Shown in pieces: positions 19,931 to 22,396 of a stretch of DNA of 64,000 bases. Positions within the stretch are counted from its first letter, which is position 1; each line of letters opens with the position of its first letter. This DNA is from Halorubrum salinarum (GTDB taxonomy: Archaea; Halobacteriota; Halobacteria; Halobacteriales; Haloferacaceae), in contig NZ_CP053941.1 of NCBI RefSeq assembly GCF_013267195.1, positions 2,666,001-2,730,000 of the forward strand, in the 5' to 3' direction. The notes beneath the pieces were generated by a model. The model did no database searches and was not told the DNA's origin. It was given only the letters and a program-made list of their open reading frames with translations. Position numbers and translations under genes: made by a program.

Positions 19931-20773
19931 TCAGTTCCGGACGCCGTCGTCGGTGATCACGGTGTCGATCATCCCGATCGGCGTGGCGTCGTAGCTCGGG
20001 TTCTCGATCTCCACGTCCTCGACGGGCTCGCGCATCACCTCGACGGCGTCGCGGAACTCGTTTTCGAACCGGAACTCCTCGATGGTCTTCGCGCCCGAGC
20101 CGACCGCGGTGACGGGGACGCCGAGCTCGCGGGCGGTGACGACCAGCGGGAACGTGCCGATGCGGTTGTAGTAGGTCCCGCCGGTGATACAGGTGATCCC
20201 CAGCAGGACGCGGTCGCAGTCGCGGAGCGCGTAGCCCATCGCGCTGTCGACGACCATCCGCGTCTCGACGCGCGACATCCCGGCGAGGACGCGCGCGGTC
20301 TTGCGCCCGAGGGTCCGCGGGCGCGCCTCGGTGACGTAGACGGTGAGGTGAGCGCCGTCGCGGGCGGCGTCCTCGATGGCTTCGAGCACGGTCGTCGAGT
20401 AGTCGTGGACGAGCAGCGTGTCGCCGTCGTCGAGGTGTTCGGCCGCGTTGGCGGCCGCCTCCCCCTTGGCCGTCTCGATGTCGTCGACCACGCGGGCGAT
20501 CACGTCCTCCAGCAGCTGCTTCGCGCCCTCGACGCTCGTCGCCTCGCCGACGATTGAGCGCTCGACCTCGCGCATCGCGTTGTGGAGCGCCGCGTGGGAG
20601 GGGTTCGAGCGGCGCAAGACGCCCGCGTTGTGTTCGAGGTCGCGCTCGAACTCGTCGACGGTCACGTACTCGCGGTCCAGCAGGTCCGCGAGCGACCGCG
20701 TCGCCTTCACGGCCACCGCGGACGTGCTGTGGGTCCGCATCGCCCGGATCTCGGCGACGGTCTCGTCGATCAT
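19931..20773 (-). CDS. eIF-2B / ribose-1,5-bisphosphate isomerase family protein lacking catalytic residues
   Basis: A 280-residue member of the eIF2B-alpha/R15P isomerase/MtnA superfamily: helical N-terminus (about 1-105), then a Rossmann-like half with LLVHDYSTTVLEAI, VDSAMGYALRDCD and NRIGTFPLVVTARELGVPV. Family knowledge: isomerases use a Cys in a T-H-C-x-S type motif and an Asp in GAD. Here the first reads V-H-D-Y-S and the second GITCI, so both catalytic residues are missing. It is therefore more likely a regulatory eIF2B-like protein than an isomerase. A CTTTTACG box (20795-20802, minus strand) lies 22-29 bases before the ATG. Confidence 0.75.
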   Translation of the reverse strand: MIDETVAEIRAMRTHSTSAVAVKATRSLADLLDREYVTVDEFERDLEHNAGVLRRSNPSHAALHNAMREVERSIVGEATSVEGAKQLLEDVIARVVDDIETAKGEAAANAAEHLDDGDTLLVHDYSTTVLEAIEDAARDGAHLTVYVTEARPRTLGRKTARVLAGMSRVETRMVVDSAMGYALRDCDRVLLGITCITGGTYYNRIGTFPLVVTARELGVPVTAVGSGAKTIEEFRFENEFRDAVEVMREPVEDVEIENPSYDATPIGMIDTVITDDGVRN

Positions 20774-20830: not shown

Positions 20831-21808
20831 CTATTCGAGCCCGAGACGGTCGGTCGCGCGCGGCACGCACCCCGCCTCGGGCTCGACGTACGAGTAGTGG
20901 TCCGCGACCAGGTCGGTGACGTCGACGTCGACGTAGCCGTCCGGCGTGGTCGCCGACGCCGGGAGCCCGTCGTGGCCGACCGCCCGGGTCCGGTCCGACG
21001 CGCGGTACACCCAGCCGAGCACGCGGTCGTTCCGGCTGTGGAAGTTGTAGACGGGGGCGTCGAGCGCCGCGATCGCCTCGCCGTACCGCCCGTCCGCCGC
21101 GGCGCTCTCGTCCGGGATCGCGCCGCCGAACAGCGACGCCGAGGCGAGGACGCCCGTCCGCCCGCGGGCCGCGAGCTCCCGAAGGGTCGCCCCCGTCACG
21201 CGGGCGCCGAGCGAGTGGGCGAACAGGTGGACCGGGCGGCCGTCCGCGTCCGCCCACGCCGTCAGCCAGTCCGCGAGCGGCACGGCGTTTGCGTCGGCGG
21301 TCTCCTTCGCCGGCCCCCAGTCGACGTTCGACGCCCACGAGTAGCCGATCACCGGGCGGGCCTCGTCGACCGCGGCGTCGCCCTCTGCCGCCGCGTCGGT
21401 CCCCGACTCCTCGCCCGTCGCCGCGGCGAGCGCGAGCCGAGCGGTGTACGCCTGGTCGCGCGCCGACTCGGCGTCCGCGCCCAGCCCGTGGACGTACAGG
21501 ACCACGGAGCCGGCGCCGTCGAAGCCCCACGACCCCGAGCGCTCGGTCGGGTCGTCGGCGTCGAGGCGCCCGCGCGTCGACACCATCGGCTGCGTCTCCG
21601 GCGCGTCGTACCCGCCGAAGTCGCCGTCGAGCGCGTTCGCGACGTAGAGGCCGCCGCCGCCGAGGAGCCCGACGCCGCCCGCGACGCCGTAGAGGAGTCG
21701 GCGTCGGGTGACGAGGCCGCCCGCGTCGTCGTGCGCGCGCTCCGTCGCGCCCGGGTCGGTCGATCCGCCCGCGTCGTCGGCGCCGTCCCGCGAGGTGTTG
21801 GAGGAGAT
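20831..21808 (-). CDS. Tat-signal alpha/beta hydrolase (lipase/esterase-like), start codon missing
   Basis: An alpha/beta-hydrolase-fold protein of about 325 residues with VVLYVHGLG (oxyanion strand) and the nucleophile elbow FAHSLGARVTG, plus a late FHSRNDRVLG and a C-terminal DHYSY that can supply the acid and His. Near the N-terminus is a twin-arginine signal (TRRRLLYG followed by a Gly/Leu/Val-rich stretch), so it is probably exported folded. No ATG, GTG or TTG lies in frame near the expected start. The 5' end given is an ATC at 21806-21808 that sits 26 bases after a TATTTGAT box. The next in-frame candidate, a GTG, lies inside the divergent gene. Confidence 0.7.
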   Translation of the reverse strand: MSSNTSRDGADDAGGSTDPGATERAHDDAGGLVTRRRLLYGVAGGVGLLGGGGLYVANALDGDFGGYDAPETQPMVSTRGRLDADDPTERSGSWGFDGAGSVVLYVHGLGADAESARDQAYTARLALAAATGEESGTDAAAEGDAAVDEARPVIGYSWASNVDWGPAKETADANAVPLADWLTAWADADGRPVHLFAHSLGARVTGATLRELAARGRTGVLASASLFGGAIPDESAAADGRYGEAIAALDAPVYNFHSRNDRVLGWVYRASDRTRAVGHDGLPASATTPDGYVDVDVTDLVADHYSYVEPEAGCVPRATDRLGLE

Positions 21809-21859
21809 ACCGATCCGTCGCCCCGGACGATCAAATAGCTGACGCGGCGGCGACGGCTG

Positions 21860-21886: not shown

Positions 21887-22396
21887 ATGAGCTACCCGGT
21901 CACGTACTACTGTCCCCACTGCGGGACGCTCGTCGCGCTCGAACGCGAGGGGTACCTCGCGGACAAGTCGGTGACCCCGTACCCGCTGGAGGGGTGGACG
22001 TACGTCGCGCCGACGGAGCCGTTCGACGCGGAGGCAGGCGACGGCGGTGCGGACGGCGACGAGGATGGCGAGGACGGCGAGGACGCGGTCGAGGCCGACG
22101 GCGTCCGGTTCGTCTGCGGCGAGAGCGACGGCGTCGACTGGGACCCCCACGACGGCGTCCGCGGCACCGACGTGGGCGGCGACGAGCCGTATCGGGAGCC
22201 GGACGCGGACGGCGTCGGCTGCGGCGAGCCCTTCTACCTCTCGTTCGTCCGCTACGAGGAGGGCCGCGAGGTCGACCCCCGAGCGGAGTCTGAGCCCGTC
22301 GCGATCAACCCCGACCCGCGCCCGAGCGGGCCCCGCGGCCCGTCCGGCCCCGGCGAGGCCGGCGGGCCGAGCGACTCTGACGGCGGCTTCTGGTGA
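21887..22396 (+). CDS. Small zinc-ribbon-like haloarchaeal protein, function unknown
   Basis: A 169-residue protein that begins with a CxxC pair (TYYCPHCGTLVALEREGYLADKS split over residues 5-27), followed by an acidic low-complexity linker (about 45-70) and two more Cys contexts (VRFVCGES at about 75 and GVGCGEPFYLSFV at about 110). The four Cys could form one zinc site. The C-terminus is Gly/Pro/Ser-rich (PRPSGPRGPSGPGEAGG). I do not recognise a named family. It is divergent from the Tat hydrolase, with separate promoters. Confidence 0.65.
   Translation: MSYPVTYYCPHCGTLVALEREGYLADKSVTPYPLEGWTYVAPTEPFDAEAGDGGADGDEDGEDGEDAVEADGVRFVCGESDGVDWDPHDGVRGTDVGGDEPYREPDADGVGCGEPFYLSFVRYEEGREVDPRAESEPVAINPDPRPSGPRGPSGPGEAGGPSDSDGGFW

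Follow-up and report, generated by a model that had tools for sequence, protein, structure and literature searches.

An ATC codon conserved at the predicted leaderless start of a Tat-signal hydrolase gene in Halorubrum and other haloarchaea

Where does translation begin in a gene which has no ATG, GTG or TTG codon at the expected start of its protein? This question is raised by a hydrolase gene in a stretch of 64,000 nucleotides of the Halorubrum salinarum genome, which was analysed as a whole and is called the window here. A preliminary description of the window had noted that the hydrolase frame lacks a canonical start codon between the divergent neighbouring gene and its Tat signal, that it has an ATC codon where ATG is expected, and that a sequencing error, a lost gene or non-canonical initiation could each account for this. 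The features discussed below are listed with their window coordinates and strand.

20831..21808, minus strand: gene for a Tat-signal alpha/beta hydrolase (DUF726/DUF900, from profile matches), 325 codons from the ATC plus the stop codon TAG
21808..21806, minus strand: ATC, proposed translation start (from the codon list, orthologue comparison, and codon and promoter models)
21828..21844, minus strand: extended promoter box CGTCAGCTATTTGATCG, which contains TATTTGAT at 21830-21837
21713..21805, minus strand: variable N-terminal stretch, from the ATC to the Tat motif
21640..21712, minus strand: Tat signal VTRRRLLYG and hydrophobic stretch
21584..21586, minus strand: internal ATG (MVSTRGRL), 74 codons downstream of the ATC
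21212..21214, minus strand: predicted nucleophile Ser199 (HSLGAR), from alignment A1
21887..22396, plus strand: divergent open reading frame with an ATG start, containing the in-frame GTG 21917-21919

The window protein matches PF05277 with 43.8 bits (curated cut-off 22.6) and PF05990 with 23.5 bits (curated cut-off 20.5), and PF05277 is matched by all 19 members of alignment A1 at E ≤ 0.001. Its Tat signal sequence, VTRRRLLYGVAGGVGLLGGGG, has the twin arginines followed by a hydrophobic stretch which characterise Tat substrates; the twin arginines are present in 16 of the 19 rows of the alignment and replaced by Lys-Arg in L058, L061 and L062, and on this basis the product is predicted to be Tat-exported. 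Besides Ser199, Asp261 (21026-21028) and His304 (20897-20899) are also invariant in the alignment, and the three residues would form the catalytic triad, while a search of solved structures gave no matches to the hydrolase at E ≤ 0.01. With regard to the neighbouring genes, the divergent reading frame encodes 169 residues with a CPHCG motif and has no Pfam or NCBIfam match at E ≤ 0.001. Downstream of the hydrolase gene and on its strand, 19931-20773 encodes an IF-2B family protein (PF01008), with a match to TIGR00511 (ribose 1,5-bisphosphate isomerase) of 140.5 bits, below the curated cut-off of 314.1.

The codon list of the hydrolase frame (22150 to 21601) shows that the ATC is followed by TCC TCC AAC ACC TCG CGG GAC GGC (SSNTSRDG), and that no ATG, GTG or TTG is present from the ATC to the twin arginines (21706..21701). 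The first in-frame canonical codon upstream is the GTG at 21919..21917, within the divergent reading frame, and the first one downstream is the ATG at 21586, past the Tat signal, and the preliminary description of an interval free of canonical codons, from the divergent gene to the Tat signal, is therefore confirmed. Since the frame is open upstream to 22396, the window alone cannot fix where translation begins.

The TATTTGAT box is located at 21837..21830, with its TATTT at -29 to -25 from the A of the ATC. In 244 predicted ATG genes of the same genome (from the window and a 400 kb sample) the A/T content peaks at -29 to -26 from the ATG, and the ATC is therefore at the usual leaderless distance; likewise, the TATA-like box approximately 26-30 nt before the start codon that is typical of leaderless haloarchaeal mRNAs is present in the window. 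The leaderless distance given in the preliminary description thus stands, while its figure of 26 bases holds approximately from the middle of the box, as the end of TATTTGAT is 21 bases from the ATC. The ATC is predicted to be at, or no more than 2 nt from, the 5' end of the transcript. The exact box CGTCAGNTATTTGATCG is present as one copy each in 23 of 52 genomes of the genus, always adjoining the hydrolase gene, and was found in none of the 23 genus genomes without a match to the hydrolase protein. From the start of the box to the ATC there are 36 nt in all 28 distinct Halorubrum-type regions. A TATA box would need neither the length nor the degree of conservation of the 17-base box CGTCAGnTATTTGATCG, which was seen only next to the hydrolase gene and may double as the operator of a dedicated regulator.

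We compared the start region in orthologues from 19 loci of species-named genomes and from the 52 genus genomes. A hydrolase match was found in 29 of the 52, with a full-length copy in 27, and all 27 full-length copies have ATC at the start position, downstream of the same type of box in 26 and of a diverged promoter in one (L047/L067). The 81 bases around the ATC occur in 27 distinct forms, all with the ATC and the same spacing, one of which comes from a broken copy (L048/L068, with the ATC kept and a TGA three codons before it) that was counted only in the 27 forms and the 28 regions; a weak match (L002, E 7e-4) and two fragments of decayed copies (L049, L050) were left out of the start codon counts. 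Beyond the genus, ATC is found in 14 loci (L051, L054-L059, L061-L064, L104, L117, L118) from eight further genus codes (g12, g13, g14, g24, g25, g48, g51, g95), which together with the window's genus makes nine genus codes and four family codes (f1, f6, f7, f12). The hydrolase loci of other genera have 43-77% identity, and those in which an isoleucine heads the similarity all encode it with ATC. Peptides following from the ATC in these genera include ISDTDS, ITDSSG and ISENTQ, which we take to have the look of ordinary haloarchaeal N-termini with I replacing M. One of these loci, L064, comes from the same genome as L057, in which it is a second and distant copy (43% identity). The decayed copies (L048/L068, L049, L050) are from three genus genomes (G004, G023 and G017, the last at a second locus); one of them retains the box and the ATC with the middle of the gene lost, and one such genome has a full-length copy elsewhere.

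The conservation of a non-canonical codon at the start position across species resembles that known from infC and sigR, with exceptions. In L060 the aligned codon is GTG, and this identifies the position as a start, while L103 has ATG; in the Haloarcula-type copies (L101, L102, L105-L116) an ATG precedes the Tat motif by 7 codons. Of the more distant loci, L069 has ATG and L065 was left unlabelled. When the window's gene (L001), L067 and the 14 loci of other genera are aligned (16 sequences, 69 columns), no column apart from the three of the ATC is invariant. This invariance is partly circular because the alignment was anchored on the isoleucine codon, so that A and T are given and only the third base is free. 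As 78 of the 96 isoleucine codons in these 16 genes are ATC, the constant third base is only mildly surprising, and the use of ATC over ATT or ATA is weak evidence. Within the genus, invariance also extends to many columns around the ATC.

For the same 16 loci, promoter positions were scored with a weight matrix derived from 114 ordinary ATG genes of the 400 kb sample that have an A/T box, with the window left out. Of the 200 positions scored per locus, the highest is no more than 2 nt from the ATC in 8 of the 16, where chance would give approximately 0.4 loci; in the remaining eight it is elsewhere, with the ATC ranking 131 of 200 in L059 and 65 of 200 in L117. For three tested Haloarcula rows the maximum is 11 nt upstream of the ATG.

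Next to its position behind a promoter, the ATC can be judged by what follows it. In the 28 distinct Halorubrum-type regions the distance from ATC to Tat motif has 13 different lengths, and although all three frames were searched, all are multiples of three. In 8 of the 28 regions the codon score of this stretch is above zero and highest for the hydrolase frame, and its mean over the regions is -2.6; codons 2-13 of the 244 ordinary ATG genes have a mean of +3.5, a rough comparison as the lengths differ. The pN/pS ratio of the stretch is 0.74 (37 pairs). The window's own stretch scores +11.1, compared with -24.6 for an equal length upstream. An N-terminal coding signal as proof of translation was dropped, as the score is weak in most copies. 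We also scanned 330 strongly coding genes from 464 kb of the genome with a codon model that included competing frames. Looking for a coding signal before the first canonical codon missed the hydrolase gene, because the far-upstream GTG shares its open frame, and the 330 genes were ranked by the gain of the best boundary over the best canonical start. Forcing a canonical start costs the hydrolase gene 37.8 nats, which ranks first of the 330 (the next gene has 15.3), and its best boundary is exactly 21808.

A protein tree of 47 rows was constructed with the N-terminal stretch included and start labels assigned from the comparison (L065 unlabelled). In this tree 41 orthologue rows group together, comprising 35 with ATC, five with ATG and one with GTG; both L103 and the ATG clade of Haloarcula branch from within the ATC rows, and L060 (GTG) pairs with L118 (ATC). 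Although the root position of the clade is only weakly determined and some of the rows are long, ATC is probably ancestral, with two later changes to ATG and one to GTG. A recent change from ATG to ATC in the window's genome does not agree with this nesting, in which the ATC form is probably the older one. Orthologues at E ≤ 1e-90 were found in few genomes of other families (1/9 in f6, 2/26 in f12 and 1/125 in f7), and this patchy distribution, together with the presence in 29 of the 52 genus genomes, suggests that the gene moves between species. Copies are located on the large plasmids pHLAC01 (Hrr. lacusprofundi), pHH400 (Har. hispanica) and pNG700 (Har. marismortui), which fits the patchy distribution. 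The Hrr. lacusprofundi gene HLAC_RS16410 (WP_049934018.1) is annotated in the PLSDB gene table from an ATG 74 codons past the ATC, with the Tat signal lost, showing that gene models limited to ATG, GTG and TTG can remove a whole Tat signal.

Viewed in a single genome, the ATC could be a sequencing error or the mark of a dead gene, and the decayed copies in G004, G023 and G017 show that the gene does decay in relatives. As ATC precedes conserved hydrolase frames in each of the 27 full-length copies of the genus and in the 14 loci of eight other genus codes, we attach practically no probability to either, and on comparison of the sequences both error and gene loss are excluded as the cause of the ATC, leaving non-canonical initiation as the supported one of the three early proposals. 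Translation might also start at an upstream in-frame codon such as the GTG at 21919, on a leadered transcript. The frame of the window is open far enough for this, and among the 15 ATC rows which do not belong to the main Halorubrum group, eight contain a canonical codon within the open stretch listed upstream of the Tat motif: an ATG 4 codons before the ATC in L054, a GTG 3 codons before it in L059 and 2 codons before it in L055, and codons further from the ATC in L056, L057, L063, L064 and L104, with L057 (TTG) and L064 (GTG) also having one after the ATC. However, the canonical codons of these rows are at dissimilar distances from the ATC, and if the same promoter distance is used, the upstream ones would lie before the transcript. 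Against it there are also seven loci (L011, L051, L058, L061, L062, L067, L117) with an in-frame stop codon 4-32 codons before the ATC, in which there is no ATG, GTG or TTG from that stop to the Tat motif, so that an upstream canonical start, which the preliminary description had set against the ATC, fails for the family as a whole and is very improbable for the window. These brackets and the window's codon list give the lack of a canonical start at the coding 5' end that is also seen in infC and sigR. L118 is likewise without a canonical codon over the 210 codons of open frame covered, while in the Hrr. lacusprofundi copy (L042/L100) the ATC is followed six codons later by a GTG, a canonical codon between ATC and Tat signal. 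The brackets exclude canonical starts without by themselves singling out the ATC, because other near-cognates occur in them: in L117, where the bracket begins TAG CAG TAC ACT ATC ACT GAA, the ATC is the sole near-cognate, L061 and L062 have a second ATC two codons earlier, and besides these second ATCs, four of the seven loci hold further near-cognates upstream, among them L051 (ATA, CTG), L058 (ACG, ATT) and L067 (CTG, ATT).

Unlikely, but deserving more weight than an upstream start, is that the ATC serves as a transcription initiator only, with translation from the codon before TRRR (GTC or GTT in the listed genus copies) or from the internal ATG. The base before the ATC is a pyrimidine in 16 of 16 aligned sequences, the coding score between ATC and Tat signal is weak in many copies, a GTG is located just before TRRR in four tested Haloarcula rows and a TTG in L057, and public annotation begins the Hrr. 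lacusprofundi copy at the internal ATG. On the other hand, the length from ATC to Tat motif varies by multiples of three only in all 28 regions, and the codon before TRR or TKR is CTC in L062 and L117 and a Phe codon in L067. Conservation of the internal Met does not extend to several other genera (L054-L057), and a start there would leave the conserved Tat signal untranslated. A family-wide GTC start before TRRR, as in sigR, was considered separately and rejected, with the codon being CTG in L054 and L118 in addition to the CTC, TTG and Phe codons already mentioned.

We therefore consider it likely that the ATC represents an old AUC start on a leaderless mRNA which has been kept by selection, most likely for low or initiation-factor-dependent output. 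Sequence comparison provides the basis for this reading in the form of the conserved ATC, the promoter spacing fixed within the genus, the open frame, the seven loci lacking a canonical alternative and the wide occurrence of ATC in the clade. Transcription would start from the TATTTGAT box, with the 5' end of the mRNA coinciding with the A of the ATC or lying one or two bases from it, and translation would initiate at the 5'-terminal AUC. The initiator Met-tRNA (anticodon CAU) would pair with the first two bases and mispair at the third, making initiation weak, and the methionine would probably be removed afterwards, as the second residue is mostly Ser or Thr. The secreted hydrolase would thus be produced in small or conditional amounts. 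As a single base change gives AUG, and some relatives do use ATG, the poor start would appear to be selected, most likely for low hydrolase output or for dependence on initiation factor activity. In S. solfataricus aIF1 is reported to discriminate against non-canonical starts (PMC8211752, PMC6237735), which makes aIF1 a candidate brake on the AUC start.

There are other ways in which an AUC could be decoded. If an undissociated 70S ribosome were to read it with the elongator Ile-tRNA, the hydrolase would begin with isoleucine; we regard this as improbable, and if true it would be a natural and conserved example of a leaderless mRNA initiated with an elongator tRNA. A search for a dedicated initiator tRNA with a GAU anticodon used one exact pattern, the 13-mer GGGCTGATAACCC, presumably the signature of an initiator-type anticodon arm. 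It was found in only 6 of the 52 genomes, four of which are among the 29 with the hydrolase gene or a remnant of it, and in G000 it falls in no tRNA gene called by ARAGORN, and on this one pattern the candidate was rejected.

How does the AUC start compare with known systems? In Halobacterium salinarum, initiation at GUC is reported to have required a mutant initiator tRNA. No haloarchaeal AUC or ATC start was apparent by title among the exact-phrase literature matches listed, although one may have been reported elsewhere. Leaderless mRNAs themselves are known from haloarchaea, with 72% leaderless in Hfx. volcanii, and the start codons named for them in the review in question are AUG, GUG and UUG (PMC7531240); the hydrolase gene has the same promoter-to-start distance as the predicted ATG genes of the window's genome, whereas its AUC lies outside this set. 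Whether archaeal leaderless mRNAs are initiated by the 30S subunit or the 70S ribosome is described as an open question in the same review (PMC7531240), and a native, mispairing AUC at a predicted mRNA 5' end, present in four family codes, offers a ready test of start codon discrimination in haloarchaea. An archaeal ATC start has been proposed for the L12ae gene of Staphylothermus marinus, and like the one described here it was deduced by alignment of orthologues, but it concerns a single gene in one crenarchaeal genome, and its conservation in other species is not reported in the L12ae account (PMC2678158). Among the bacteria, infC likewise has a non-canonical start of the ATH type, with ATT used in E. 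coli, while Streptomyces has the same ATC as the hydrolase gene (PMC5472188); the infC product discriminates against its own start, resulting in autoregulation, whereas the hydrolase is a predicted secreted enzyme of an archaeon with a predicted leaderless mRNA. The sigR gene of Streptomyces also has a non-canonical start throughout the genus, GTC in 32 and GTT in 2 of 34 species, which is repressed by IF3, and with canonical starts the protein is overproduced (PMC5472188). It differs in having a strong ribosome-binding site, in the use of GTC rather than ATC and in its dependence on bacterial IF3, and while the sigR account gives no evidence for other actinobacterial genera (PMC5472188), the ATC of the hydrolase gene is found in nine genus codes. 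Conserved non-canonical starts are thus known, and what would be new here is their occurrence on a predicted leaderless archaeal mRNA, for a predicted secreted enzyme, across nine genus codes.
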